40,050 nucleotides of DNA from a virus, in IMG/VR virus record IMGVR_UViG_3300005530_000053, positions 1 through 40,050 of that record; one strand, given 5' to 3'. The notes below the pieces were generated by a model that was not told the origin of the DNA, searched no databases, and worked only from the letters and a program-made list of their open reading frames with translations. Positions 5,144 through 19,967 of the stretch are shown piece after piece (the stretch's first letter is position 1; every line of letters starts with the position of its first letter). Position numbers and translations under genes: made by a program.

Positions 5144-5452
5144 TTAGTCATCTACCTGAAAGAAGAAAGGACCTAATCTTGGCGTTTGTGGTGATGCAGC
5201 AAAAGAGATGAAGAGCTTATAACGTCCTTCATCTAAAGAATTTGAATCGATTAGTGGCTGAGCAATCATACCTTCATTTCCTGCAATTGCGTTTGTTACG
5301 ATTTCCGTCTCATCTTCATCATCTTTGTAAAGATCATATCTTAGGTCCAAACCATCTAAGGTTAAGATAGTTCCGAAAGCGTCCTTGACCTTAACAGGCC
5401 AATATTGAATACTACCCTTTGGTACATGAATTGTAGCTTGTGCAATAGCCAT
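5144..5452 (-). CDS. Hypothetical structural-operon protein, 102 residues
   Basis: Begins MAIAQATIHVPKGSIQYWPV and looks all-beta, with aromatic residues alternating with polar ones and a C-terminal GRYKLFISFAAS stretch, suggesting an Ig-like or baseplate/fibre accessory fold. It starts at the stop of the repeat fibre gene and ends one base before the terminase start. No family recognised; a virion or fibre-associated role is inferred from position. Confidence 0.65.
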   Translation of the reverse strand: MAIAQATIHVPKGSIQYWPVKVKDAFGTILTLDGLDLRYDLYKDDEDETEIVTNAIAGNEGMIAQPLIDSNSLDEGRYKLFISFAASPQTPRLGPFFFQVDD

Positions 5453-7842
5453 TACATATCTTTCGGATTCATTGGTTTACCTCTGAGATGCTCGATTGCG
5501 TAACCTGAGAATCTAAGTAGAGCCTGTCCAGACCACTGAGTTAATGCAATACCACTTGCAATAATCATTCCAGCGTTCTGGAATACTTGTGTTGTTAATG
5601 TTGCGATTCCTGTTCCTGTAACCTCTAGTACTTTTTGTACTGATCTGATTAAGGTAGTATTTCCGATTGCAGTTACAAAGAATTCAACCGTCGTAGCCGT
5701 CGATTGAATCATTGTCACAATAACAGAACCAGTCGTAGAAAATGTTGAACTTACCAAACGGGCTAGTACTGCAATTCCATTTACTGTAACCCTTAAACTT
5801 ACCTGCGGCGCTCGACGAATTGAGGCTACTGCGGTAGCAGTTGTCGTAAATACTGCGGATTGTAAGGCTGCTGCTGTTAATGATGCCACCCCACTAGATG
5901 TTGCACTAAATACATGCGATGGTAATTTACTTAATGAGGCAACACCTGTTACTGTAACATTGAATGTCCTTAAGATGATTGAAGTTATTGAGAGTGATGC
6001 TATTCCTGTTCCAATTGTGCTTAATGTTCTAATTGGTGCTCTAATTAAACTTGTCGTCCCCGTTCCAATTGCAGTAAATGAAGCTAGTCTCACTTTTAGG
6101 CTGGTTAAGGATGCTACTCCCGTGCCGACTGAACTCAGCACACGGGCAGGCACCCGAACTAGTGTAGCCAAGCCAGTTCCAGCAGCCAAGTACACAGTAT
6201 ATATAGAGCGTACTACGGATGCCCCTCCCGTACCTAGAACCGAGAGATTAATTTGCGGATTTTTGATTAATGATGCTAATCCAGTTGCTGTAGTTGCGAA
6301 CTCCGCTAGTCGTACTTTGATAACGGAGAGAGTTGCTGTTGATGTGCCAATTACATTTAATGTTCGTAATGGATTTCTGATGAAAGTTGCTGTACCTACT
6401 GCAGTTATGCTTAATGCCCTGATAGGCGTACGTACAAATGTTGCAACATTTGATCCAGTGGTAACAAGAATCTTTTGAGCGCTACGAACCAGAGACGTGA
6501 CATTACTTGCTTGAATAGAGTATGTACGTGAGAGAGAACGCGTAATACTTGCAACGCCGGCTCCTGATACAGTTAGATTTCTTGAGATATCACGAATTAG
6601 TGTAACTACTACTGTAACTGATCCTGAGGTTACAAGAATTTTTCGCGGTTCTCGAATCAAAGACACCACACCAGTAACAGTAACACTTAATGTCTTTAAA
6701 CTTAGTTTTAATGCTGCTACAGTTGCAGTTCCAACACCTGTAGCAAGTAGACTTCGAATCGGATTTCTAACTAATGTGGCCGTTCCACTTCCCGTAACAG
6801 ACAGGCTTCTGATTGGACTTCTAATTAAACTTGGAGTAACAGTTCTTGCAACAGAGAAAATATGCAATGGAGAACGTACGAAAGTTGCTACACCAGATGT
6901 AACTACAGAGAGCAGTCTAATAGGTGAACGTACAAGTGTGCTAATTCCCGTACCTGTTGCACTTAAGGATCTAATAACTACTTTGGAAGTAACTAAAGAT
7001 ACAACTCCAGTTCCAGCCGCCGAAAGTGAACGGCTAGGAATCCTTCTAAGTACAGGAACGCTAGTTCCACTAGAAGATAGTGATCTAGCTGGTGCACGAA
7101 TCAAAACTCGAGCCGCAGTTCCAACTCCCGACAAGACCTTAGTTGGAGTTTTTTGCAAAACTGGACTTCCTGAACCAGATGCACTTAGAGTTGCAAATTG
7201 AGTTGATCCCGTAAGTTCCTTGATCGCAACTGCAACCATTGCGACATCATCAGTAGTAGCTGTCCATCCTACAGTTACATTACCACCAGCATCATTCGTG
7301 TCGATTGTTTCTAGAACTGCAACTTGCTGGCCGAAGTCATGGTTATCTAGTTTACTGAATCCTGTACCAGACGTAAATGCAGCTTGTGTACCCTGACCGG
7401 ACATGACAATGCTCATTGCCCATGTTTCTACACTCGCGCCGGTAGTAAGAACGACAGTTGGGTTTGCTTGGTTCTCTTGGGCGACTCCAGAAGCTTCAAC
7501 TGCTGTATTAGCTGCTCCTGTTAAAGTAATAATCCATGCAACTTTATCACCATTAACTGCTGATGTATCGAAGTTTACCGTTTGTGTCCCGGTTGGAATA
7601 CCTGAACCTAAGAAATAAATATACGACGCCATAAATTCGGTCGCCGTATCTTTCGCGAAGCCATTGGTCAATCGTGCCATGGCTACGCCACCATAAGTGA
7701 CTCCCGCCATTTCATCTGCATCAGTACCATTCTGAGCAATACAGACGAGGACAGCTTTAGGTGTACCAATAGGAGTATGGTTGGTACTAGAATCACCCGT
7801 AAAGAGTGCTGTTTTAGTGAAGGTGTCTAGAGCGAGAGTCAT
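5452..7842 (-). CDS. Giant repeat fibre protein with about 29 tandem 18/20-residue repeats
   Basis: 796 residues. Residues 1 to about 215 form a globular beta-rich head with alternating small residues. From about 216 to 758 the chain is tandem repeats of consensus R-S-L-S-x-T-G-T-G-x-A-T-L-V-R-x-P-I, mostly 18 residues with about nine 20-residue variants. Alternating hydrophobics and conserved Gly pairs fit a beta-solenoid or triple beta-spiral fibre shaft. The C-terminus (ALLRFSGYAIEHLRGKPMNP) is distinct. Likely a virion fibre or appendage. The start at 7842 lies 5 bases after a 12-bp hairpin that contains part of its AGGAGG site. Confidence 0.75.
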   Translation of the reverse strand: MTLALDTFTKTALFTGDSSTNHTPIGTPKAVLVCIAQNGTDADEMAGVTYGGVAMARLTNGFAKDTATEFMASYIYFLGSGIPTGTQTVNFDTSAVNGDKVAWIITLTGAANTAVEASGVAQENQANPTVVLTTGASVETWAMSIVMSGQGTQAAFTSGTGFSKLDNHDFGQQVAVLETIDTNDAGGNVTVGWTATTDDVAMVAVAIKELTGSTQFATLSASGSGSPVLQKTPTKVLSGVGTAARVLIRAPARSLSSSGTSVPVLRRIPSRSLSAAGTGVVSLVTSKVVIRSLSATGTGISTLVRSPIRLLSVVTSGVATFVRSPLHIFSVARTVTPSLIRSPIRSLSVTGSGTATLVRNPIRSLLATGVGTATVAALKLSLKTLSVTVTGVVSLIREPRKILVTSGSVTVVVTLIRDISRNLTVSGAGVASITRSLSRTYSIQASNVTSLVRSAQKILVTTGSNVATFVRTPIRALSITAVGTATFIRNPLRTLNVIGTSTATLSVIKVRLAEFATTATGLASLIKNPQINLSVLGTGGASVVRSIYTVYLAAGTGLATLVRVPARVLSSVGTGVASLTSLKVRLASFTAIGTGTTSLIRAPIRTLSTIGTGIASLSITSIILRTFNVTVTGVASLSKLPSHVFSATSSGVASLTAAALQSAVFTTTATAVASIRRAPQVSLRVTVNGIAVLARLVSSTFSTTGSVIVTMIQSTATTVEFFVTAIGNTTLIRSVQKVLEVTGTGIATLTTQVFQNAGMIIASGIALTQWSGQALLRFSGYAIEHLRGKPMNPKDM

Positions 7843-11288: not shown

Positions 11289-11465
11289 ATGGAATACCCT
11301 GATTGGGACGAACTCTACACAATCGAGACTAAAACGCCGAAGGGTTGGGAGATTACGCATATGTATGATCCCAAGAATATTTCACTACGCAAGGTTATGC
11401 AAGTATTCGAACGTCTCGCAGTAAATCAAAACGAACAGTTTAGACTCACAGTACCGAAACCCTAA
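11289..11465 (+). CDS. Small hypothetical protein, 58 residues
   Basis: ATG 11289 follows GAAAGGATCACG. The product starts MEYPDWDELYTIETKTPKGW, ends in a basic strand and appears to be a compact alpha/beta domain. No family recognised. It lies between the AT-rich region and promoter 11485-11512. Confidence 0.5.
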   Translation: MEYPDWDELYTIETKTPKGWEITHMYDPKNISLRKVMQVFERLAVNQNEQFRLTVPKP

Positions 11466-11484
11466 AACCTAGACTTAAGTATAG

Positions 11485-11512
11485 TTGACTTCCCAACACA
11501 GTCTGATACACT
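11485..11512 (+). promoter_or_regulatory. Promoter TTGACT-16-TACACT
   Basis: TTGACT 11485-11490 and TACACT 11507-11512 with a 16-base spacer. Transcription would start near 11519, giving a roughly 158-base structured leader to the gene at 11677. Confidence 0.7.
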
Positions 11513-11533
11513 TCAACTATAATGAAAGGAGAG

Positions 11534-11646
11534 GTTATTTGAGGGATAGACGTAAGGCTTGATCGGCCGATAAGTCAAACCCTGATAAAAGATGACCGGG
11601 CTAAGTTTTGGGTTGATAATCCGGTTGCGTTTATCCCTCAAATAAC
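11534..11646 (+). ncRNA. Structured 5' leader with closing 15-bp stem and possible pseudoknot
   Basis: GTTATTTGAGGGATA (11534-11548) pairs perfectly with TATCCCTCAAATAAC (11632-11646). Inside, a CTT-ATC/GAT-AAG hairpin caps on GGCC (11558-11574). TCA(A)ACCC (11575-11582) can pair with GGGTTGA (11610-11616) and GACCGG (11594-11599) with CCGGTT (11621-11626); these two helices cross, i.e. form a pseudoknot. The 5' arm also carries a possible 7-codon leader peptide (TTG at 11539 to TGA at 11562) after GGAGAGG. The Shine-Dalgarno of the next gene lies just outside the stem. A cis-regulatory RNA is likely; no known riboswitch recognised. Confidence 0.65.
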
Positions 11647-11676
11647 TTCAACCGCAAGAAAGGAGGTGAAAATTAA

Positions 11677-12048
11677 ATGGCTGATACGCTCTCACTTGAC
11701 ATGATCGATGAGGTTCTTGGTTCTACTCGTTCGAAGCTTAATTCTTCCGACTACGTGAAGGATTTTCTCGCTTCGGGTGAGATGGGTCGGGAGGTCGATT
11801 TGGGTGCTGGTTCGTTCGTCGGAAAGTCTGCAAAGCAGGTTAAGATGGCTCTTGATTCTGCGCGCAAGAAGGTTTCCGATGAGACTGGAACGCTTGCGAT
11901 TCCGGGTGGAACCGACATTCAGGTTCGAATCAAGCAGGAGACTAACGGGCTTAAGGGTGATAAGAAGGTCGTTGTTTCTGAGCGGCTTTTCATCATCAAC
12001 ACTAAGTTGGTCGCTGAGGCCCGTGCGTCACAGAACGGAAGCAAGTAA
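11677..12048 (+). CDS. Paralogous small protein A, 123 residues, unknown function
   Basis: Excellent Shine-Dalgarno (AAAGGAGGTGAAAATTAA) and a codon choice (GGT, CGT, AAG, GCT) that suggests high expression. The protein is about 70% identical by eye over about 105 residues to the product of the gene at 17049. Shared stretches include LGSTRSK, DFLASGE, GREVDL, DETG, IPGGTD, KQETNG and a C-terminal INTK-VAEARA. No family recognised. A helical N-terminus and strand-rich Lys/Arg C-terminus could suit an abundant nucleic-acid or protein-binding factor. It has its own promoter and a structured leader. Confidence 0.8.
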   Translation: MADTLSLDMIDEVLGSTRSKLNSSDYVKDFLASGEMGREVDLGAGSFVGKSAKQVKMALDSARKKVSDETGTLAIPGGTDIQVRIKQETNGLKGDKKVVVSERLFIINTKLVAEARASQNGSK

Positions 12049-12053
12049 GAAAT

Positions 12054-12097
12054 AGGATGAATTGCACGCGGGCATCCTTTAAACAACCGTGCTAATT
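12054..12097 (+). ncRNA. Possible 3' pseudoknot after paralog A
   Basis: AGGATG (12054-12059) can pair with CATCCT (12073-12078), and AATTGCACG (12060-12068) with CGTGC-t-AATT (12088-12097, one bulged base). The two helices cross, giving an H-type pseudoknot right after the gene and ending just before promoter 12102-12130. It may protect the 3' end or terminate transcription. Pairing is visible; function is inference. Confidence 0.4.
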
Positions 12098-12101
12098 GTA
12101 C

Positions 12102-12130
12102 TTGACAAACATTTCGAAGTATGCTACACT
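12102..12130 (+). promoter_or_regulatory. Promoter TTGACA-17-TACACT
   Basis: TTGACA 12102-12107 and TACACT 12125-12130 with a 17-base spacer and TATGC before the -10. Start about 12137, leader about 22 bases to the TTG start at 12159. Confidence 0.85.
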
Positions 12131-12158
12131 TAAGCTACAAATCGAACGGGAGGTTATT

Positions 12159-12437
12159 TTGAGTGAGCTTACACTCACTGACGCAGAAGTGAACGAACTT
12201 GCAGATTCGATGCGCTACGGTCGCGGGCATTTGTGCTTTACAAATCTTGCGAACAAGAATGCTGTTAAGAAGGCTTGTACGCAAAAGCGAATCAAGACTG
12301 TTAGCCGCACGGCACACGGTTCACTTCTAGACCCACGTTACACTGTAGAGGGAAGGCATCTTCCTGATAAGGGATTCGCAAACGATTATAAGCGATTCCA
12401 TCCTAAGCTTTACGTACTAGAAACTTCACGCTGGTAA
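12159..12437 (+). CDS. Hypothetical protein, 92 residues, TTG start
   Basis: The frame is open from 12096, but that region is the promoter. TTG 12159 follows AACGGGAGGTTATT and lies downstream of the predicted transcript start, so it is the likely start. The product begins MSELTLTDAEVNELADSMRY and is then basic, with GHLCFTNLANKNAVKKAC, a possible DNA- or RNA-binding region. No family recognised. It is followed by 273 bases of structured RNA. Confidence 0.65.
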   Translation: MSELTLTDAEVNELADSMRYGRGHLCFTNLANKNAVKKACTQKRIKTVSRTAHGSLLDPRYTVEGRHLPDKGFANDYKRFHPKLYVLETSRW

Positions 12438-12443
12438 AAGAGT

Positions 12444-12595
12444 GTAGCGGTTCGGCATGGTGAGCCGATTAAATGTTACTACCTAAGTAACAGCCGCTAC
12501 CGAATTTAGACCGAAACAGTGGGTTGAAGTCTTTAAACTAGAAACCCAGTCTGCTAGGATTCACCCGGTTGACTAGCAGAGAAAACAAACCGGGT
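12444..12595 (+). ncRNA. Three-way junction followed by an 8+8 bp H-type pseudoknot
   Basis: GTAGCGG (12444-12450) pairs with CCGCTAC (12494-12500), enclosing hairpins TCGGC/GCCGA (12452-12456, 12464-12468; 7-base loop) and GTTACT/AGTAAC (12475-12480, 12486-12491). A TGGGTT/AACCCA stem follows (12520-12525, 12543-12548). Then TCTGCTAG (12550-12557) pairs with CTAGCAGA (12573-12580) while ACCCGGTT (12563-12570) pairs with AACCGGGT (12588-12595), two perfect 8-bp helices that cross as a textbook pseudoknot. The overall shape recalls tRNA-like RNAs but no tRNA is encoded. It abuts the next element. Confidence 0.7.
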
Positions 12596-12691
12596 AGTTG
12601 AATGAGACAATAAGTTAAGCCCGAAATCGCCGGGTTGACTAAAAGCCCGAACTGCGTCAGTAGTGGAACCACTTATTGTCTCATTGAGCTA
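12595..12691 (+). ncRNA. Structured RNA element, family copy 1
   Basis: TAGTTGAATGAGACAATAAG-T (12595-12615) pairs with 12671-12691, giving about 20 pairs with one G-G mismatch (12600/12686) and one G-U pair. The interior is about 55 bases with CCCG/CGGG pairing options. The outer sequence TAGTTGAATGAGA / TCTCATTGAGCTA is identical in the element at 17716-17831, while the inner stem differs with pairing preserved. It ends 14 bases before an AAAGGAGGG ribosome site, so it may act on the gene at 12711. Confidence 0.7.
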
Positions 12692-12710
12692 ATCAGAAAG
12701 GAGGGATAAA

Positions 12711-12890
12711 GTGAAAAGCGAACACTACAAATCGTATGCGCCAGACAAACATGGCCCTGCTGCTGAAAAGCGTAAATCAGAAGCCGCCGAATTTGTTGAG
12801 GCGCTTCGAATTAAGCACGGTATCCCTCTAGAGATTCTATACCCTGCCTATCCTGAAAGAAACAAATACGTTTCTTACGCAAGGAGGTAA
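12711..12890 (+). CDS. Hypothetical protein, 59 residues, GTG start
   Basis: GTG 12711 follows GAAAGGAGGGATAAA directly after the structured RNA. The product starts MKSEHYKSYAPDKHGPAAEK and has one amphipathic helix (AAEFVEALRIKHGIPLEIL). The last codons (AAGGAGG) double as the Shine-Dalgarno of the next gene, so the two are coupled. Family unknown. Confidence 0.6.
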   Translation: MKSEHYKSYAPDKHGPAAEKRKSEAAEFVEALRIKHGIPLEILYPAYPERNKYVSYARR

Positions 12891-12892
12891 AA

Positions 12893-13087
12893 ATGCATCC
12901 CGATAAGCCTCTAAAATTTCGCTACGATTGTGTAATCGTAGACTCTGCGAACAATAGACGTGAAATTACCGTCTACGGTCTCTCATTCGCAGATGCGGAG
13001 TCTGAGTGTAAACGAGTTGCTGATATTCAGGAAGATGAACAGTTGGTTAGGATTCTTCTAGATTGGGAATCTGGCCCTACCCACTGA
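12893..13087 (+). CDS. Hypothetical protein, 64 residues
   Basis: ATG two bases after the previous stop, using AAGGAGG within that gene. The sequence (FRYDCVIVDSANNRREITVY, then an alanine/cysteine helix and a final strand) looks like a small alpha/beta domain. No family recognised. Confidence 0.6.
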   Translation: MHPDKPLKFRYDCVIVDSANNRREITVYGLSFADAESECKRVADIQEDEQLVRILLDWESGPTH

Positions 13088-13099
13088 GAGTAAACTACA

Positions 13100-13402
13100 A
13101 TGAAAATCATTACAAATAACGTGCCGCGTGAAGTCATCCGCGAATATGAGTTGACAGAAAAAGAGCGAAAAGAGTTTGACTATCTAGGAGAGGATGGTGG
13201 TTACTTCTTTAGATACAAAGGTGAGGTTTACGATTTGGGGGAGTTCACTACAACTAGTGGACTAGATGGTACGTTCGATCTTTGGGACGGGTATCACTCT
13301 GATACCTTCTTTAGTGGAATCCTTGTTAGGTATCCACGAACAGATAGAGGTACATTCGATTCCGATAATGATACAATTATCGTCGGGAGATACTATTCAT
13401 GA
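13100..13402 (+). CDS. Hypothetical early protein, 100 residues
   Basis: Starts MKIITNNVPREVIREYELTE, then GGYFFRYKGEVYDLGEFTTT and, near the end, WDGYHSDTFFSGILVRY. This FFRYKGE-YDLGEF pattern recurs in small early proteins of phages infecting Gram-positive hosts, to my recollection, without a known function. Its stop overlaps the start of the next gene (ATGA). No strong Shine-Dalgarno is seen. Confidence 0.65.
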   Translation: MKIITNNVPREVIREYELTEKERKEFDYLGEDGGYFFRYKGEVYDLGEFTTTSGLDGTFDLWDGYHSDTFFSGILVRYPRTDRGTFDSDNDTIIVGRYYS

Positions 13403-13584
13403 ACGATACAGAAGCACTAGCACTAATGAGTTTGCTTCAAAGATATTTTCATGAGTATCCAGAGACATGCAGAATGGACAAAACCGCAATCGACATTCTA
13501 GAAGATTTGAAGGAAACAATGGAATCGACTACAGCTAATGATAAGGCTGTTGAGATTTGGGAATCTATTAAGTGGAACGACTAA
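13399..13584 (+). CDS. Small helical protein, 61 residues
   Basis: ATG overlaps the previous stop by four bases, typical of translational coupling. The product (MNDTEALALMSLLQRYFHEY and on) is acidic and mostly helical. No family recognised. Confidence 0.55.
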   Translation: MNDTEALALMSLLQRYFHEYPETCRMDKTAIDILEDLKETMESTTANDKAVEIWESIKWND

Positions 13585-13602
13585 GAAAGGAATCAACCGC
13601 AA

Positions 13603-13818
13603 ATGACACTGTACGATCAAATCATCGACGAAGCAGAGGAACTTGCAGAGAATAGAATTCTCTACGATCCTACAGATTCGCAGATCGTGGATGCTATTTC
13701 AGATATCGTCCGAATCAAGCTTGCTTACAATTCTATCGGCGCGCATCTTGCAATTGCAGCATACAATAGAATTGACAATGCACTCAATAACATTGAAAGT
13801 GTTGGTGCAATGCGATGA
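13603..13818 (+). CDS. Small helical protein, 71 residues
   Basis: Directly preceded by AGAAAGGAATCAACCGCAA; CAACCGCAA touches the ATG and recurs before other genes. The product (MTLYDQIIDEAEELAENRIL and on) is acidic and all-helical. Its end overlaps the next start by four bases (ATGACT). Function unknown. Confidence 0.6.
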   Translation: MTLYDQIIDEAEELAENRILYDPTDSQIVDAISDIVRIKLAYNSIGAHLAIAAYNRIDNALNNIESVGAMR

Positions 13819-14054
13819 CTAACAGCCAAGCCATTTACTTTGCAGACACACTTTGTGAGAAGCAGCGATTCGTCTATAACCACTTGTTCGGCACAATGCG
13901 TTGGACATACTGGTGGGAAATTGCAGCTTCTCTTAGATACACAAATCTCAATATAGATGATATCGATAATGCACTCGATAGTCTCACTGAATCTGGAAAG
14001 ATTGAAATGACCCACACGTTGACGGGAGGTAGGATTTGGAGAGTGAATCTATGA
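13815..14054 (+). CDS. Putative winged-helix protein, 79 residues
   Basis: The arrangement of a helix (QRFVYNHLFGTMRWTYWWEI), a second helix pair (NIDDIDNALDSLTESGKIEM) and a final beta wing (THTLTGGRIWRVNL) fits a small winged helix-turn-helix, so a DNA-binding or regulatory role is possible. Coupled to its neighbours by ATGA overlaps at both ends. No specific family recognised. Confidence 0.55.
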   Translation: MTNSQAIYFADTLCEKQRFVYNHLFGTMRWTYWWEIAASLRYTNLNIDDIDNALDSLTESGKIEMTHTLTGGRIWRVNL

Positions 14055-14167
14055 GAGCACAATTCACAATGACACTTGCAACATGGGTATGCATTATCGG
14101 TCTATGTATGGTATTCTGGTTCTTTGTAGGTTATGGTATTAAAGAACTAATCGAATACATCTTCTAA
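14051..14167 (+). CDS. Single-pass membrane peptide, 38 residues
   Basis: ATG overlaps the stop of the previous gene (ATGA). After seven residues comes a hydrophobic span TWVCIIGLCMVFWFFVGYGI long enough to cross the membrane, then a short KELIEYIF tail. Small membrane proteins are common in early phage regions. Function unknown. Confidence 0.55.
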   Translation: MRAQFTMTLATWVCIIGLCMVFWFFVGYGIKELIEYIF

Positions 14168-14181
14168 ACCAGGGAGGTGAT

Positions 14182-14358
14182 GTGTTAAGATTCCTGGTAG
14201 CGGCCGCGATTCTTGCGTTCATCTTAGTTGCGATGGAAACACAAATTATTGGGATACAAAATGATAGACGCAAGGACGAATGCAAAACAGTAGCATATAA
14301 TGGAATCGTACACAAAGCTAGTGATTACGAATACTATTCTTGTTTGAACGGAGGATAA
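14182..14358 (+). CDS. Small membrane-anchored or exported protein, 58 residues, GTG start
   Basis: GTG 14182 follows CAGGGAGGTGAT. The first 18 residues (MLRFLVAAAILAFILVAM) are a membrane anchor or uncleaved signal, followed by a polar domain with two cysteines (EC and SC) that could form a disulfide outside the cell. Its last codons (ACGGAGG) supply the ribosome site of the next gene. Confidence 0.55.
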   Translation: MLRFLVAAAILAFILVAMETQIIGIQNDRRKDECKTVAYNGIVHKASDYEYYSCLNGG

Positions 14359-14359
14359 A

Positions 14360-14596
14360 ATGAAGTTCATAGTCTGGCGCAATGATATGGTTACTGTGAG
14401 GAATTGGCCGATCGTTGTTGAAGCAGACGCAGATACTCCGGCCGATGAAATTGTGCGGATTGCATTTCGAGCAAAAGGTTGGCCTGATTATGAACCGAGG
14501 GATAAGAGGTACGTAGTTGTACCAATGAATGAGGCAATGGTTGTCTCTTTCATTCCGATCAATCAATACACTACTAGAATCGATCCTTATGTTTAA
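14360..14596 (+). CDS. Hypothetical protein, 78 residues
   Basis: ATG right after the previous stop, with GAACGGAGGATAAA as ribosome site. The product (MKFIVWRNDMVTVRNWPIVV and on) looks like a small alpha/beta fold with strands at both ends. Its end overlaps the next gene. Family unknown. Confidence 0.6.
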   Translation: MKFIVWRNDMVTVRNWPIVVEADADTPADEIVRIAFRAKGWPDYEPRDKRYVVVPMNEAMVVSFIPINQYTTRIDPYV

Positions 14597-14780
14597 AGAG
14601 ATTGAACACTTGCAGAAGGTTAGCGCCGTGTGGTACGATACTACAAACGCTTTTGAGCGCAGAATTGCAGTTAGACTACACAATGGTGTGCTTACAATCT
14701 CACAAAGAGATAATCCGTCTGATATCTGGTCGCCGTCTGTAAAGATGCCACTAGCAGGCATTAGATTTTCGGAGGAATAA
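14589..14780 (+). CDS. Hypothetical protein, 63 residues
   Basis: I start it at ATG 14589, which overlaps the stop of the previous gene, rather than at an earlier in-frame codon inside that gene. The product begins MFKEIEHLQKVSAVWYDTTN and has a beta-sheet pattern (RIAVRLHNGVLTISQ). It ends on TAATG, coupling it to the next gene. Family unknown. Confidence 0.55.
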   Translation: MFKEIEHLQKVSAVWYDTTNAFERRIAVRLHNGVLTISQRDNPSDIWSPSVKMPLAGIRFSEE

Positions 14781-14944
14781 TGCCTACACTTGAAGTAGAA
14801 TTGTATCGCATTATTCAGAAGATCAACGTTACGGAACCAACTTATGTATTGGTAGATATGGTTAATGGTGAGGAACATGAATGTAGTACATATGAGCAAA
14901 TGTTGGAACTCTTAAAGGAAATTAACGATGGCAACGCACCATAA
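14780..14944 (+). CDS. Hypothetical protein, 54 residues
   Basis: CGGAGGAATA lies at ideal distance from ATG 14780, which shares a base with the previous stop. The product starts MPTLEVELYRIIQKINVTEP and ends in a helix (TYEQMLELLKEINDG). It overlaps the next gene by 17 bases. Family unknown. Confidence 0.55.
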   Translation: MPTLEVELYRIIQKINVTEPTYVLVDMVNGEEHECSTYEQMLELLKEINDGNAP

Positions 14945-15179
14945 AGCAACTTACAATTTAGTTGCAAAGAAGATCCGCGATCAGTTCCCCACAACTTCAA
15001 ACGATCATTTGCAAGTTGTAATGCGCGGCTTGCTTTGTGAACTTGCAATTGATTTTGCAGATTCTTTTAAGAGAGACAATCCTGAAAGATTCGATCCTAT
15101 TAGATTCCTAAATGCATGTTCGCCAGATGTAGACTTGTATCCAATTAGTGAGCTTTGGAACGAGGCACATAATGGATGA
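14928..15179 (+). CDS. Hypothetical helical protein, 83 residues
   Basis: ATG 14928 lies inside the end of the preceding gene, with AAAGGAAATTAACG upstream. The product starts MATHHKATYNLVAKKIRDQF and is helical, with a central VVMRGLLCELAIDFADSFKR. It ends with ATAATGGATGA, coupling to the next gene. Family unknown. Confidence 0.6.
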   Translation: MATHHKATYNLVAKKIRDQFPTTSNDHLQVVMRGLLCELAIDFADSFKRDNPERFDPIRFLNACSPDVDLYPISELWNEAHNG

Positions 15180-15339
15180 ACATCGTAAATCTCTAGCAAT
15201 TGTAACAATCGACAAACGCATGGTTTATAAGTCTGTTGGTTGGTGGTTGAAATTCGGTAGTCGTCCTAAATCTGAATTGAGTTGCGTACATGACGTTAAA
15301 CTCAATATTCATTGTCAGGCGTGTGCAAAGCAAACATGA
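15172..15339 (+). CDS. Small zinc-knuckle-like protein, 55 residues
   Basis: ATG 15172 overlaps the previous stop. The N-terminus (MDEHRKSLAIVTIDKRMVYK) is a short alpha/beta segment, and the C-terminal third has CVHD, then HCQAC, a Cys/His pattern that could bind one zinc ion. Such tiny zinc proteins recur through this region. Function unknown. Confidence 0.6.
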   Translation: MDEHRKSLAIVTIDKRMVYKSVGWWLKFGSRPKSELSCVHDVKLNIHCQACAKQT

Positions 15340-15845
15340 ATATTATGGAACTAGACGATATTCTAAATCTCAATAGACTTCAATGCACAGGTGAGCAGGC
15401 AAGAGCCGGATGGTATCTAGATCAAGATGCTATTCTAGAAGCTATTGATAAACTAGGCATTAAGATGCCAGTTCATATTCGCTACATGACCGCAACTGCG
15501 CGAGCAGTTAGAGAACGTGGTCGTGGTAGAAGTTGGGGTAAAGGTGGCAAAGGCTGGACATACGGTACTCATCGAAATACGAAACAGCACCATAAAATTA
15601 CAGTAGACCAAGAGCGTGAAGCTGCCGAAACGAGTAATACACTTTGGCACGAATTGGCTCATTGTATGCAATCAGAAAAATGGGCTAAAGAGACAGGCAA
15701 AGATATTACATTGTGGCATCACGCGGATTACAAGGCTGTTGATGGTGAACATGGCCGAAGGTACAAAGGAAATTTGTACGAGATTGAGGCTAATAGGATT
15801 GCTGAGGATAATCAAGATTTCATGTTGGTAGCTTTTGCCTCTTGA
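15336..15845 (+). CDS. Putative zinc metallopeptidase (HExxH zincin), 169 residues
   Basis: The frame starts at ATG 15336, overlapping the previous stop. HELAH at 105-109 gives two histidine ligands and the catalytic Glu106, and YEIEANRIAED (148-158) supplies a plausible acidic third ligand (Glu151) about 40 residues further on, the usual zincin layout. A Gly/Arg-rich loop (GRGRSWGKGGKG, 62-73) precedes it. No signal peptide, so it would act in the cytoplasm. The substrate is unknown. Phage-encoded metallopeptidases can remove host proteins, but that role is speculation. Confidence 0.75.
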   Translation: MNIMELDDILNLNRLQCTGEQARAGWYLDQDAILEAIDKLGIKMPVHIRYMTATARAVRERGRGRSWGKGGKGWTYGTHRNTKQHHKITVDQEREAAETSNTLWHELAHCMQSEKWAKETGKDITLWHHADYKAVDGEHGRRYKGNLYEIEANRIAEDNQDFMLVAFAS

Positions 15846-15870
15846 CTTTCCTGAGCATCTATGCTATGCT
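15842..15870 (+). promoter_or_regulatory. Promoter TTGACT-17-TATGCT
   Basis: TTGACT 15842-15847 overlaps the stop region of the metallopeptidase gene; TATGCT 15865-15870 follows after 17 bases. Start about 15877, then a leader with CAACCGCGA and TAGGAGGTG before the GTG at 15919. Confidence 0.8.
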
Positions 15871-15918
15871 ATTTGAGCCGTCGGATTTAACAACCGCGAA
15901 TTTTTAGGAGGTGTAAAA

Positions 15919-16209
15919 GTGGAAAAGCGTGGTCGTGCAATGACCGCAGAAGAGGCTCAGAATATTCTTGAGACTACTTCAACCAAGACTACGTTGATTA
16001 GTTGGTTCCATCCGTTTACAGAGCAGATGATTTCTGCAATTGAGAGTGGCAAGAATAGTGTGATCTTGAATGGTCGCACTTTTCTCGTTAAGAATTGCGA
16101 GAATGGAACTGACTATGTGTTTACGGTTGTGGGGGACTTTATTCCTATGACCCGCGTTTCTTTGGAAAATCTTAGAAGCAGGTTGGTTGTAGATGCCAAC
16201 TCCGCTTGA
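15919..16209 (+). CDS. Hypothetical protein, 96 residues, GTG start
   Basis: GTG 15919 follows TTAGGAGGTGTAAAA under its own promoter. The product (MEKRGRAMTAEEAQNILETT and on) looks like a small alpha/beta protein with a C-terminal helix (SLENLRSRLVVDA). It overlaps the next gene by 17 bases. Family unknown. Confidence 0.65.
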   Translation: MEKRGRAMTAEEAQNILETTSTKTTLISWFHPFTEQMISAIESGKNSVILNGRTFLVKNCENGTDYVFTVVGDFIPMTRVSLENLRSRLVVDANSA

Positions 16210-16594
16210 TGATCTTGATTTTCTTGAAGCACTAATTGAAACACCTGATCCACCAAAAGGAAGTAGAGCAAGAAAGCCTAAAGACACAAGAGATTTTGAT
16301 TCTTGGTTTAAGAAAGATCATATCAATAATCGCTGTCTGAATTGCGGCGCGATTAATTCTTGTGAAAAAGGTTATACTTCTGAAACAGATCCAGAAGCTT
16401 CCTTTCCTGATAAATGTCTCGAATGTGAAAGCACAAATGTTCAAATGTCCGGCATTTGTTCTCAGGGTGAAAATTGTCTTGGTATTCTAATGCAGGACAA
16501 AGGGCCAGAGAGAGTAACGGCAATTGTAAATGGTGTAGAAATGTGCCGTTGGGATTTTCTGGATGGTCTTGCTCATAACACGAACAATGACTGA
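16193..16594 (+). CDS. Zinc-ribbon-like protein, 133 residues
   Basis: The start lies inside the end of the previous gene. An acidic N-terminal helix (MPTPLDDLDFLEALIETPDP) is followed by a cysteine-rich middle: CLNCGAINSC, then CLEC and CSQGENC, enough for one or two zinc sites. Many cysteines and no hydrophobic signal suggest a cytoplasmic zinc protein. Family unknown. The end overlaps the next gene. Confidence 0.6.
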   Translation: MPTPLDDLDFLEALIETPDPPKGSRARKPKDTRDFDSWFKKDHINNRCLNCGAINSCEKGYTSETDPEASFPDKCLECESTNVQMSGICSQGENCLGILMQDKGPERVTAIVNGVEMCRWDFLDGLAHNTNND

Positions 16595-17042
16595 CACATT
16601 TGTACATCATTGCATTACAATGTTTAACGCCTTAGATGATCGAGCACGAACTCAGGTATTGGAGTCAGGTAATAAGGCTCGAGTTTTTGCAGGATCATAT
16701 GGTGAAGCTTGGGAAGCAACTGGAATTAGTAGAACTTACTATGGCTCTGTCCGAAAAGCGTTAGAACGTCACAACGCAATTCAATTTTTACAGCGTGGCG
16801 GTCGTGGTGCTGATACAGTTATTGTCTTACATGGTTTGCCAGAAAAGTGGGACGTATCAGGGTGGCTCGACGGTAATGACAAAGACTTGACACCTAAGCC
16901 CGACTATGCTATGCTGGAGGCACGGATTCAAGAGCTAGAAAGATTACTAGGAGGTATTGATGTAACAACGGCCCTAAGTAATTTCGAGAGTCGGGTAGTA
17001 AATCTAGAAAAATCAAAACGCAGGGCAACAAAAGGAGAGTAA
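16587..17042 (+). CDS. Putative DNA-binding regulator with coiled-coil tail, 151 residues
   Basis: ATG 16587 overlaps the previous stop. The region about 30-85 (SYGEAWEATGISRTYYGSVR and on through GGRGADTVIVLHG) fits a winged helix-turn-helix with a Gly-rich wing. Residues about 105-150 (MLEARIQELERLLGGIDVTT and on) form a coiled coil ending in a basic KSKRRATKG. This suggests a dimeric regulator. A promoter lies inside its 3' part (16887-16915). No specific family recognised. Confidence 0.6.
   Translation: MTDTFVHHCITMFNALDDRARTQVLESGNKARVFAGSYGEAWEATGISRTYYGSVRKALERHNAIQFLQRGGRGADTVIVLHGLPEKWDVSGWLDGNDKDLTPKPDYAMLEARIQELERLLGGIDVTTALSNFESRVVNLEKSKRRATKGE
16887..16915 (+). promoter_or_regulatory. 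Intragenic promoter TTGACA-17-TATGCT
   Basis: TTGACA 16887-16892 and TATGCT 16910-16915 with a 17-base spacer, inside the preceding gene. The -10 context CTATGCTATGCT is the same as at 15861-15870. Start near 16922, about 127 bases before paralog B. Confidence 0.75.
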
Positions 17043-17048
17043 TAAAAA

Positions 17049-17426
17049 ATGGCAACTGCTTCTGATACTGGCCTTTCACTTGATGACATTACTGGAATTC
17101 TTGGATCGACTCGCAGCAAGACTAACGCAGGTGAGTACATTTCGGATTTCCTTGCAAGTGGAGAGCTTGGTCGTGAGGTTGATCTAACTGCTGGTAGTTT
17201 CGCTGGTAAGCCTGCGAAGGTTATTAAGACCGCTCTTGATAACGCTCGCAAGAAGGTTAATGACGAAACTGGTCAGCTTGTTATTCCTGGTGGTACTGAT
17301 GTGCAGGTTCGTGTTAAGCAGGAGACGAATGGTAAGAAGGGTGAGGAGCGCGTTGTCCTTTCCGAGAAGCTTTTCGTTATTAACACGAAGAAGGTTGCTG
17401 AGGCTCGCGCGGCTCAGAGCAAGTAA
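17049..17426 (+). CDS. Paralogous small protein B, 125 residues, unknown function
   Basis: About 70% identical by eye to the product of 11677 over the core. The differences sit mostly between LGSTRSK and DFLASGE and at scattered conservative positions; the N-terminus has four extra residues. AAAGGAGAGTAATAAAAA precedes the ATG and codon use again suggests high expression. It has its own promoter and is followed by a 14-bp hairpin and 743 bases of structured non-coding sequence. A duplication kept within one phage suggests dosage or subunit specialisation. Function unknown. Confidence 0.8.
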   Translation: MATASDTGLSLDDITGILGSTRSKTNAGEYISDFLASGELGREVDLTAGSFAGKPAKVIKTALDNARKKVNDETGQLVIPGGTDVQVRVKQETNGKKGEERVVLSEKLFVINTKKVAEARAAQSK

Positions 17427-17431
17427 GTAAT

Positions 17432-17463
17432 TAGTAGATACGGTCTAACGACCGTATCTACTA
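17432..17463 (+). terminator. 14-bp hairpin after paralog B, with a competing partner
   Basis: TAGTAGATACGGTC (17432-17445) and GACCGTATCTACTA (17450-17463) pair perfectly around TAAC. The end of the 3' arm can alternatively pair with TAGTAGAT at 17501-17508, so two structures compete, as in attenuators. There is no clear U-tract. Confidence 0.6.
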
Positions 17464-17503
17464 TTAAGTGCTAGTGTTCCTCCCGTCCACTAGCACTTAA
17501 TAG
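17461..17503 (+). ncRNA. 16-bp hairpin with anti-Shine-Dalgarno loop UUCCUCCCGUC
   Basis: CTATTAAGTGCTAGTG and CACTAGCACTTAATAG pair perfectly, presenting an 11-base C/U-rich loop. Ten bases of it (17477-17486) are the exact complement of ACGGGAGGAA at 10708-10717, the ribosome site of the gene at 10723. Eight bases match the sites at 10345 and 12159. A C-rich apical loop is how UCCC-type regulatory RNAs of Gram-positive bacteria bind Shine-Dalgarno regions. Confidence 0.5.
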
Positions 17504-17715
17504 TAGATGAAAGTCTACTGATTTAGTAGAGAGCGGAGCAACCTGTAAGATACTGATAGAAAAGCTCAGAAAAATCCTTTGATGAGTGAGCTTTTGCTCG
17601 GGATTTCTTTTCTATTAAGTCTAAGCAGGAAATGCGTCACTACTAAGCCGAGGAACAGAAGATTCCTCGGGGCTTACAGAGTTAAACACGATACCGCTCA
17701 CTCTGTAAGTTAATT

Positions 17716-17831
17716 ACGTAGTTGAATGAGATAGTCGATCTTTGTCTAGGAGATTATCAAGAGATAACCTAGTATCTCCTGAATTTTCCTCCGGGGGCAA
17801 AGCTAGGTTCGACTATCTCATTGAGCTACGT
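17716..17831 (+). ncRNA. Structured RNA element, family copy 2
   Basis: ACGTAGTTGAATGAGATAGT-CGA (17716-17738) pairs with 17809-17831: 22 pairs, one G-G mismatch (17724/17823), one G-U. Inside are CTTTGTC/GGCAAAG (17740-17746, 17796-17802), AGGAGAT/ATCTCCT (17748-17754, 17774-17780) and TATC/GATA with loop AAGA. ATTTTCCTCC (17783-17792) is left unpaired and matches GGAGGAAAAT at 10711-10720. The outer bases are those of the copy at 12595; inner bases differ with pairing kept. Confidence 0.7.
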
Positions 17832-18077
17832 TGAGGACTATCGTGTGAGATAGTGGAAATTGCAGGTTGGGAAGGGTGGTTACATTCTATGAAAGCACGC
17901 AAGTAATAGAATGTAGGTAAACGTAGCTCAAAAATGTAGTGTGTGTCACGAAGTGGCAAATCGTGAGAAAATAAGTAGTGCGACAGTAGCTACTTACGGC
18001 AAACTCGTAGCTAAATGGGTATGATAATATTATATGTACTCATTGTATTTAACGTAGGCCGCGCACACTACAAACCT

Positions 18078-18172
18078 CATAATTGAATAAGGGGTACAGT
18101 ATACACACAAGTAAAACGTAGGGTCAGCCTACGACTACGAAAGTGAATACTTGTACCCCTTATTGAATTATG
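18078..18172 (+). ncRNA. Structured RNA element, family copy 3, enclosing a start codon
   Basis: 18078-18102 pairs with 18147-18172 (about 24 pairs, one bulge). It has the same TTGAAT / ATTGA motif and the same single G-G mismatch (18085/18165) as the two other copies. The interior has CGTAGG/CCTACG (18117-18122, 18128-18133). The ATG of the next gene (18170-18172) is the very end of the 3' arm, paired with CAT 18078-18080, and no Shine-Dalgarno is visible, so opening of the stem probably governs translation. Confidence 0.65.
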
Positions 18173-18511
18173 TCTGATTGGGTAAGGCATGGAGAATGTG
18201 ACGGATGCGGTTATTGCTGCGAAGCTTTAACGCATCCTATCCAAATTGACTTTTCACAAAATGATCCTGATTGGATTGAAGCGAGAGGATTACCAAAAGA
18301 TGGAATCACCTGGTTACCAATCATTCATCCCTGCCCAAAACTCACAGAAGAGAAGCGTTGTAGTATTTATGAAGATCGTCCAAATCAGTGTAAAGATTTT
18401 CCAACTGATCCTTCACAGGTTGAAAGAATACCATGTGTGTACTGGTTTGAAAGCGTGGTAACAGGAGAAAAAATCGGTGGAACAAGAAGCCCTTTCCCCG
18501 TCAATCAGTGA
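18170..18511 (+). CDS. YkgJ-family cysteine-cluster protein, 113 residues
   Basis: CDGCGYCCEA at 9-18 and later CPKL, CSIYEDRPNQC and CVYW form the CxxCxxCC plus distal cysteine pattern of YkgJ-type proteins (zinc or Fe-S cluster binding, function poorly known). Length fits the family. The start codon lies in the stem of the preceding RNA element and has no Shine-Dalgarno; ATG 18170 is the only in-frame start that keeps the first cysteine cluster. Confidence 0.8.
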   Translation: MSDWVRHGECDGCGYCCEALTHPIQIDFSQNDPDWIEARGLPKDGITWLPIIHPCPKLTEEKRCSIYEDRPNQCKDFPTDPSQVERIPCVYWFESVVTGEKIGGTRSPFPVNQ

Positions 18512-18524
18512 TAGACCTATAAGT

Positions 18525-18731
18525 ATGAAGCGTGAGCCTAAGCTTAGGACTATGATTGATGCATTAATGAATTCCGATGCGCCAGGAATTGAATATGCAG
18601 GTTTAGGTCATCGTGCAGATGGAATCAATTTCGCATTAAAGAATAATTCGTGGGGTCGAGAGCATGCAGACAAAATCATCGTTAAGGCACATAACACAAA
18701 TCTCTATCTTATTCATAAGGATAGAATTTGA
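18525..18731 (+). CDS. Hypothetical protein, 68 residues
   Basis: I place the start at ATG 18525, thirteen bases after the previous stop; the ribosome site is weak. The product (MKREPKLRTMIDALMNSDAP and on) is basic, with a short alpha/beta pattern (GINFALKNNSWG, KIIVKAHNTNLYLI). Family unknown. Coupled to the next gene by TGATG. Confidence 0.5.
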   Translation: MKREPKLRTMIDALMNSDAPGIEYAGLGHRADGINFALKNNSWGREHADKIIVKAHNTNLYLIHKDRI

Positions 18732-18925
18732 TGACTGATGCAGATGCATTACTTAAGGAAGTAATCGAAAATCATATCTATGTTGGATATGAATCAAATT
18801 GGTGCATCTTCTGTGGTCGTTGGCCTGAGGAACATGAAGAAGATTGTATTGTTTTACGAATTCGAGAGTACTTTGTAAAGTTAAATGATTCATCACAAAA
18901 GACAGAATTTGATGTTAAAAATTGA
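18731..18925 (+). CDS. Small zinc-binding protein, 64 residues
   Basis: ATG 18731 overlaps the previous stop. NWCIFCGRWPEEHEEDC (around residues 23-39) is a CxxC-H-C zinc knuckle followed by a helix (IVLRIREYFVKL). This knuckle with an acidic HxxDC half is common in tiny phage proteins. Function unknown. Confidence 0.6.
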   Translation: MTDADALLKEVIENHIYVGYESNWCIFCGRWPEEHEEDCIVLRIREYFVKLNDSSQKTEFDVKN

Positions 18926-19112
18926 AGCATACAATCTTGTAAAGATTCACGATGAATCTCCACGGCATAGATTGTATTGTGATGATTGTGGAATGCGTAG
19001 ACTTTGCACTCAGATTACATTAAAGCATTCAGAACATCAAACAATCAGAGTTGAATGGTTATGTAATGAGTGTTTAACCAAAACTCCGAATTGGCAATCT
19101 CGATGGTGTTAG
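18912..19112 (+). CDS. Small zinc-ribbon protein, 66 residues
   Basis: ATG 18912 overlaps the previous gene by 14 bases. YCDDCGMRRLC and WLCNEC give two Cys pairs about 25 residues apart, a zinc ribbon with intervening strands. The rest is basic and polar. It is the last gene before a new promoter. Function unknown. Confidence 0.6.
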   Translation: MLKIEAYNLVKIHDESPRHRLYCDDCGMRRLCTQITLKHSEHQTIRVEWLCNECLTKTPNWQSRWC

Positions 19113-19142
19113 TCAAGATTTGAACTTTTCATGTTTTGTGAC

Positions 19143-19171
19143 TTGACAAACTCGGTGGTTTGTGCTACCGT
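19143..19171 (+). promoter_or_regulatory. Promoter TTGACA-17-TACCGT
   Basis: TTGACA 19143-19148 and TACCGT 19166-19171, 17-base spacer, GTGC before the -10 as in the other phage promoters. The predicted start at about 19178 coincides with the first base of a perfect hairpin. Confidence 0.8.
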
Positions 19172-19177
19172 CGTTGG

Positions 19178-19282
19178 TGCCTAAATCGATCCCCCGATTT
19201 AGGCAAATGGGGAATTCTCACCGCAAGCAGAATTCTCCAAATGCGGCGGTAACGGTTTATGCGGTTGGACTGTTACCGCCGC
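19178..19282 (+). ncRNA. Leader of three consecutive long hairpins
   Basis: TGCCTAAATCG/CGATTTAGGCA (19178-19188, 19195-19205, 11 bp), TGGGGAATTCT/AGAATTCTCCA (19208-19218, 19229-19239, 11 pairs) and GCGGCGGTAACGGT/ACTGTTACCGCCGC (19243-19256, 19269-19282, 14 pairs) follow each other almost without linkers, from the predicted transcript start. It is either a stable small RNA or a protective/regulatory leader of the transglycosylase gene. The third stem is GC-rich but lacks a U-tract. Confidence 0.65.
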
Positions 19283-19313
19283 AATATCCTGAAAAGCAAT
19301 CTAGGAGGAAGTC

Positions 19314-19967
19314 GTCAGAAAGCCAAAAGCCATACTAACTGCAATACTCATTTCAGGGGTAATCGCAGGACAGGCCCAGGCCCATTATACACCTAAGCAC
19401 TTTAAGAGCTATCAGGAGAAATATCAGGAGTTTGAATCTAGGAAAGATCATGCACTAGATGTTGAAAGGTTTTTCAAGAATCATCCTGAGTTAGCAAAAT
19501 CAAAAGCTGGTAGAATCGCAATTAGAGAACACTCCCAGCTATTTAAGTGGTCAGATAGAGTTCTAAGAAAAATGGATGATATCAAACTTATCCATTTGTG
19601 GTCGAATGAGCAATTAGCTGAAGAAGGAAAAAAGGCAATCGCCAACGGCGGCACGTACTCCGTAAGATATGGCGATTGCTCAGAAACAGTAAAAGTAATC
19701 GTAAAGGAATTACTGGAAAGAACTTTTGGCCCTCATGGTACTTACTATTGGGCATACGGTATCGTTAATCGAGAAAGTGGTTTTTGCCCTGGTGCTGTTA
19801 ATACCACTTACTCTGATCCAAATGAACAAGCACAATGTGTCGCACAAATGATTCCACGGTATCATACGTGGGTAGACTACAATAGATGCAAATCTGATCC
19901 AGCGTACTCAGTTCAAGTTTTTGCAGAACTGAGCAATTACGGAACAAGCACAGGTCCGTGGTCATAA
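19314..19967 (+). CDS. Secreted lytic transglycosylase-like protein with non-canonical GTC start
   Basis: From 19314 the frame reads (GTC)RKPKAILTAILISGVIAGQ-AQA, a signal peptide with an AQA cleavage site, then a charged helical stretch (about 24-120) and a lysozyme-like domain. NRESGFCPGAVN (Glu about 152) matches the catalytic ESGF-P-A pattern of SLT/actinobacterial transglycosylases, followed by AQMIPRYHTW and a final TGPWS. Four cysteines in the mature domain suggest disulfides. An in-frame TAG at 19302 and the absence of ATG/GTG/TTG before 19572 leave GTC, 5 bases after GGAGG, as the only start that keeps the signal. Likely cuts host peptidoglycan from outside. Confidence 0.7.
   Translation, partial: VRKPKAILTAILISGVIAGQAQAHYTPKHFKSYQEKYQEFESRKDHALDVERFFKNHPELAKSKAGRIAIREHSQLFKWSDRVLRKMDDIKLIHLWSNEQLAEEGKKAIANGGTYSVRYGDCSETVKVIVKELLERTFGPHGTYYWAYGIVNRESGFCPGAVNTTYSDPNEQAQCVAQMIPRYHTWVDYNRCKSDPAYSVQVFAELSNYGTSTGPWS

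Follow-up and report, generated by a model that had tools for sequence, protein, structure and literature searches.

The locus examined here raises the question of whether a set of long inverted repeats, each interrupted by the same G·G mismatch, is maintained as RNA or as DNA, and of what such elements might do between the genes of a phage. The DNA analysed (the window) is a whole virus record of 40,050 bases with a G+C content of 43%. Its terminase is nearest to those of Arthrobacter and Microbacterium phages, with the best match at 36%; no relative was found among 50,697 phage records compared with the window at the DNA level, or among cultured phages compared at the DNA and protein levels. 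Structural genes lie in the left part of the window on the minus strand, and genes for a helicase, an exonuclease, a Sak4-like protein, a primase and a polymerase follow on the plus strand from about 20.6 kb. The elements are located in a plus-strand region of small genes, which we assume to be early genes. Elsewhere, an ORF of 796 aa (5452-7842, minus strand) contains imperfect repeats, many of them separated by multiples of 54 bases, and has a weak family match only.

Long stems in the window

A sequence-only reading of this DNA had described three elements with TTGAAT and ATTGA on the two sides of a long stem and one G·G mismatch each, and all three are present on the plus strand as described. 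E1 (12595-12691; G12600/G12686) has a 21-bp stem and a loop of 55 nt, E2 (17716-17831; G17724/G17823) a 23-bp stem and a loop of 70 nt, and E3 (18078-18172; G18085/G18165) a 22-bp stem and a loop of 51 nt. The likeness noted between the outer arms of two elements is exact in E1 and E2 over 14 nt on the 5′ side and 13 nt on the 3′ side; no direct repeat in this region is longer, and E3 has only TTGAAT/ATTGA in common with them. The similar element without a mismatch that had been placed at 11534-11646 is a 25-bp stem at 11531-11649 (E0, plus strand), which ends 27 nt upstream of where ORF 11677 starts. Six stems in the window score at least 17.5, where 200 dinucleotide shuffles give 0.105 on average; the stems are therefore not a product of chance.

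E1 ends about 18-19 nt before the GTG of a 59-aa ORF at 12711. The ATG of ORF 18170 (18170-18511, plus strand) sits inside the 3′ arm of E3; this start is not certain, and no Shine-Dalgarno sequence is seen before it. Positions 17427-18172 together make up about 745 nt of structured RNA. Right before E1, at 12551-12595, the pairings CTGCTAG/CTAGCAG and ACCCGGTT/AACCGGGT may make up an H-type pseudoknot, the third loop of which is rich in A. A promoter-like site, TTGACT-16-TACACT (11485-11512, plus strand), lies just upstream of E0 as a consensus match only, and such matches in the region do not exceed the shuffle level. A 10-nt complementarity between the 3′ arm of E0 and the Shine-Dalgarno region at 12701 was set aside as within chance for the region.

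Relatives of the stems in other virus records

The earlier reading had made its proposal depend on other copies being found, and these exist in IMG/VR records, where they were matched by structure-aware patterns. The pattern TTGAATRAG...CTYATTGARYTA, with a G·G stem, retrieved true members, and further members came from a second pattern, a pattern for the core RNA described below and the scanning of complete records. In total we find 20 G·G stems in seven virus records, with the near copies G003 and G005 counted once. In the five carrier records where a polymerase was found, this DNA polymerase is 42-47% identical to that of the window; the terminase, where found, is at 45-60%. By sequence, these five are one diverged group. 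Searches for close protein matches in IMG/VR, made with the DNA polymerase and with ORF 17049 and its paralogue, gave no kin. The matches listed for two loose pattern scans were mostly chance, yet each included a true member; 5 of 10 matches in one pattern scan do not fold, and inner pairing is found in none of the 23 matches from a scan of GTDB genomes.

Selection on RNA structure

The 20 stems from the seven records were aligned on the mismatch using the arms only, joined by an artificial GAAA linker. Paired cells make up 95.5% of this alignment, a value that is partly given by construction as the stems were picked for pairing, and the informative number is that of changes on both sides: 18 of 19 base pairs have changed on both sides with pairing kept. 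The statistical check of covariation that had been proposed gives a score of 0.813, against 0.222 in shuffles and 0.055-0.160 when the partners are slid. The differing yet pairing inner stems seen in the window are part of this pattern, with inner arms covarying across all 20 stems. We count 15 G·U pairs and no A·C pair on the sense strand, which argues for a coding-strand RNA rather than a DNA hairpin. The G·G itself is, in every record, on the strand that encodes the polymerase or the flanking genes. Comparison of these sequences thus shows the elements to be RNA under selection, on the sense strand and between phage genes, and the proposal of selection on RNA structure rather than on DNA sequence is supported.

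The invariant G·G mismatch

Each element consists of a stem of 18-28 bp, in which the one invariant G·G usually sits 5-10 bp above the base, and of a variable loop that caps it. Both Gs are fixed and their flanks vary (TT[G]AA, CT[G]AA, CT[G]CA, CT[G]GG, CA[G]CA, TT[G]GG). We counted long single-mismatch stems in the records regardless of mismatch type, and G·G is the mismatch in 20 of the 28 intergenic ones and in none of the 12 that lie within ORFs of at least 80 aa (Fisher p = 4.5e-5). The three stems of the window were known beforehand, and a single G·G stem had led to each of five other records; with these eight ascertained stems removed, G·G accounts for 12 of 20. The record G006, which was found through the core rather than through a G·G, has three G·G stems. 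One exception of the same stem type has a G·U in place of the G·G (G002, 55576-55706 in sense coordinates). Replacement of the G·G by a C-G pair makes the hairpin stronger by 3-4 kcal/mol in all nine cases computed (nearest-neighbour). A fixed G·G amid freely changing helices would suggest that a protein or enzyme reads it, or that it tunes strand exchange.

A second hairpin family, approximately TAGNGYTARTGAAG.../...CTTCAYTARCNCTA, was also observed, with variable inner arms and loops and no G·G, at G003 sense 49339-51919 (L324), G001 sense 12510-12627 (L320), and 5356-5476 and 6290-6476 of G007 (L333). Most of its members end a few bases before a Shine-Dalgarno sequence, and some have a C·A at a fixed place.

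A competing helix downstream of the stems

The 3′ arm of E2 (TTGAGCTACGTT, 17821-17832) has a perfect 12-nt complement, AACGTAGCTCAA, at 17920-17931 on the plus strand, which we term an anti-arm. Such a downstream anti-arm is laid out in 10 of the 20 elements. In nine of the 20 stems it is perfect over at least 10 nt (10-14 nt), as compared with 0.7% of random 15-mers; the tenth, that of G7b, has 14 nt paired including one G·U, and G2a and G2b have one anti-arm in common. When the ten anti-arm helices are aligned on the 3′ G, positions 0 to +7 are paired in every case, and compensating pair types occur at +2 and at +7 to +11, partly beyond the reach of the hairpin. In all ten, the 3′ arm pairs more with the anti-arm than with the 5′ arm. 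The anti-arm helix begins at the 3′ G that is mismatched in the hairpin, and because this G is paired in the new helix the G·G marks the branch point. The hairpin and the exchanged form exclude one another at the outer arm, and the inner hairpin is kept. Comparison of the records therefore shows two mutually exclusive conserved helices with one common strand, the arrangement of a strand-displacement switch, in 10 of the 20 elements.

The energies of the two forms were estimated by nearest-neighbour rules, which leave tertiary contacts out of account. When the unused arm is kept unpaired, the difference ranges from +0.1 to -9.4 kcal/mol, favouring the exchanged form. The unconstrained minimum is the hairpin form in E2 and G6a and the exchanged form in G3a, G3b, G4a and G7c; G7b is a tie, and in G2b and G4b the unconstrained minimum lies below the forced exchanged form. 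The G·G is kept in stems that have no anti-arm (E1, E3, G1a, G4c and others), so strand exchange alone does not account for the mismatch.

Position relative to genes

Of 38 long stems, 17 have a start codon 10-40 nt downstream of their end, against a mean of 1.5 and a maximum of 6 in 500 shifted controls; the shift does not preserve intergenic location, and the gene calls come from a simple script. The anti-arm ends 20-30 nt before the start in G2a/b, G4b, G6a, G7b and G7c, and without an anti-arm the stem itself can end near the start (E1 at about 18 nt, G4c at 18 nt and G1a at 29 nt). Stems lacking the G·G (E0 and type B) occupy the same positions, so this placement does not depend on the G·G. 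E3 and two stems with GATCA[G]CATG cover a start codon or adjoin it, an arrangement that suggests repression more than insulation. The genes downstream of the G·G stems are of different kinds, so that no single gene goes with the element, and a punctuation role of a general sort is favoured over the control of one gene. None of the 20 stems is directly followed by a T-run as in an intrinsic terminator, and the E stems are absent from the list of predicted terminators.

A proposed role in intercistronic punctuation and possible processing by RNase III

The best explanation of these observations, which we hold tentatively and at somewhat less than an even chance, is intercistronic punctuation by strand exchange, perhaps with processing by RNase III. 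The genes and elements would here be transcribed as one unit. The hairpin would form first during RNA synthesis, and the anti-arm would then displace the outer 5′ arm by branch migration, a step that the energetic cost of the G·G, roughly 4 kcal/mol, would enable. The final helix would end just upstream of the ribosome-binding region of the next gene, and the element would isolate this region from the upstream RNA. It would probably also be a site where the transcript is cut, with host RNase III as the candidate, or stabilised; no phage-encoded RNase III is recognisable in these phages. A stem length near two helical turns fits RNase III.

A simpler account, possible and to our minds the strongest of the alternatives, is that the stems are sites like those of T7, at which host RNase III would cut so that each downstream gene receives its own 5′ end; the G·G would then limit or place the cut, with strand exchange secondary or absent. 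Long intergenic hairpins near the next ribosome-binding site are what is found here: stems of about two turns between genes, ending at the next ribosome-binding region, and an actinobacterial control genome has RNase III. As in T7, long imperfect hairpins lie between what we take to be early genes, near the next gene and several to a transcript, and the T7 R1.1 hairpin, which has bulges and mismatches and receives a single RNase III cut (PMC4858673, PMC8708148), counts in favour of this account. Sites of the T7 type, however, can do without an invariant G·G and without an anti-arm, and the present elements differ from them in having both, together with conserved outer arms and larger loops; cleavage in our case is a candidate activity only.

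The ORF 17049 protein family

Apart from punctuation by strand exchange, the gene content of the carrier records offers a possible protein partner. ORF 17049 (17049-17426, plus strand) encodes 125 aa and founds a family, retrieved by iterated profile search, whose roughly 12 members are spread over all seven records, with the weakest members resting on late iterations. ORF 11677 (11677-12048, plus strand) is a paralogue, 70-73% identical. The protein gave no significant match in Pfam, PHROG or PDB, and its AlphaFold model (pLDDT 78.6) gave no significant fold match with Foldseek; with a small alignment, this is weak evidence of absence. By sequence comparison, this is a new small protein family.

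In seven members of the family a long hairpin starts 6-100 nt past the stop codon. The stems might thus be binding sites of the ORF 17049 family, through which it would regulate its own and neighbouring genes, and the presence of the family in every element-carrying record, as well as a weak, non-significant resemblance of the protein to ribosomal proteins and to Alba/SpoVS folds, would be in line with this. We consider such binding unlikely, given that no sequence or fold match is significant, that the hairpins right after family genes often have no G·G (in the window, G001, G003 and G007) and that nearness to these genes could reflect shared synteny. In the window, this place is taken by an overlapping hairpin pair X-X′-X (TAGTAGAT / ATCTACTA / TAGTAGAT; 17432-17509, plus strand), 6 nt past the stop of ORF 17049. 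The X-X′-X layout, without a G·G, also occurs after the stops of homologues at L333 14679-14765 and at about 7065-6945 on the minus strand of L243; in L073 and L259 the same place holds the G·G stem GATCA[G]CATG, abutting the next ATG.

A conserved junction RNA between E2 and E3

Positions 17936-18073 (plus strand) encode a core RNA, a four-way junction closed by stem P1, with two hairpins whose loops are conserved and an invariant GCAAACTCGTAGCTA. An alignment of the window with G004 and G006 has changes on both sides in 15 of 36 pairs, from three sequences only, and the loops are conserved as AGTGGCAAA and GCGMCAGKA, or nearly so. In G006 the core overlaps the end of a small ORF. A covariance model of the core run over the other records finds its own three sequences and no more, and among 40 matches to the core pattern only those in L245 and L259 are real. 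Judged by comparison of these sequences, the core is a separate conserved RNA, distinct from the E2 and E3 stems that flank it.

The strong conservation of the core bears on a further reading, in which the stems are processing handles and small trans-acting RNAs, made of either the variable loop or the core, would be released from them. The loops are on average more stable than shuffles (mean z -1.08, n = 18) and two G·G stems of G007 lie directly behind a tmRNA gene, which such a role would accommodate; we think it unlikely, as the loops have no evident common sequence, several have z near zero and two are just 10-13 nt long. The tmRNA gene of G007 (L333) lies at 15383-15679, and its predicted tag peptide is odd (AERNTSNKVLTTLKVSGGGVRKAAR). 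In L159, at about 8735-8670 on the minus strand, a short tRNA-like sequence has a T-arm and acceptor-like ends and is not called as a tRNA by ARAGORN. Finally, near-perfect inverted repeats with common ends and different interiors would suit elements acting as DNA (cruciforms, recombination sites or mobile hairpins of the MITE/REP kind), yet we disfavour these as highly improbable, since MITE/REP-like copies would be homologous in the interior also, and here the interiors have no evident homology, the inner arms covary, the G·U excess and the G·G are always those of the sense strand, and the stems are placed before start codons.

Comparison with known RNA systems

The only matches of the window to Rfam 15 covariance models above the gathering threshold are to tRNA, and the region 11420-19600 has no credible match at E ≤ 10; the records of the relatives match tmRNA and tRNA only. 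Strand displacement is a known mechanism of riboswitches, for example the ZTP and yxjA purine riboswitches (PMC10085676, PMC9756952). Such riboswitches and attenuators have, as our elements do, two exclusive helices with one common strand and similar energies; unlike these platforms, the present elements mostly have no terminator or sequestered Shine-Dalgarno sequence, have no conserved aptamer in the loop, and occur in many copies before unrelated genes. The put RNA of HK022 is likewise an RNA of a phage early transcript, repeated in the genome (PMC9378689). Put measures about 70 nt, consists of two stem-loops close to the early promoters and has two copies (PMC9378689), whereas our elements lie between cistrons and each rest on a single long stem, so that both layout and position differ. 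GOLLD, ROOL and OLE (PMC12286853) resemble the stretch at 17427-18172 as large ornate RNAs linked to bacteria or phages, but the latter has no Rfam match at a permissive threshold and a conserved core of only 138 nt. As the elements belong to no Rfam family and are not put RNAs, terminators or MITEs, we call the family new, though of a broadly known kind: its function would be like that of an intercistronic processing or boundary element, and its architecture that of a strand-displacement switch.

The readings by strand exchange, RNase III, protein binding and small RNAs can overlap. A more far-reaching one, which we regard as improbable though worth stating, is that of a novel phage RNA machine, in which transcripts would consist of overlapping strand-exchanging hairpins, a protein of the ORF 17049 family would read the G·G branch point, and the order or amount in which the genes of one transcript are expressed would be set in this way, with the new four-way-junction RNA in addition. 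The present analysis adds two RNA families, the stem and the junction core, both absent from Rfam and, in the searches made, from cultured phages. They bear on how a phage of this kind may portion out a long transcript, and the G·G mismatch provides a strong signature.
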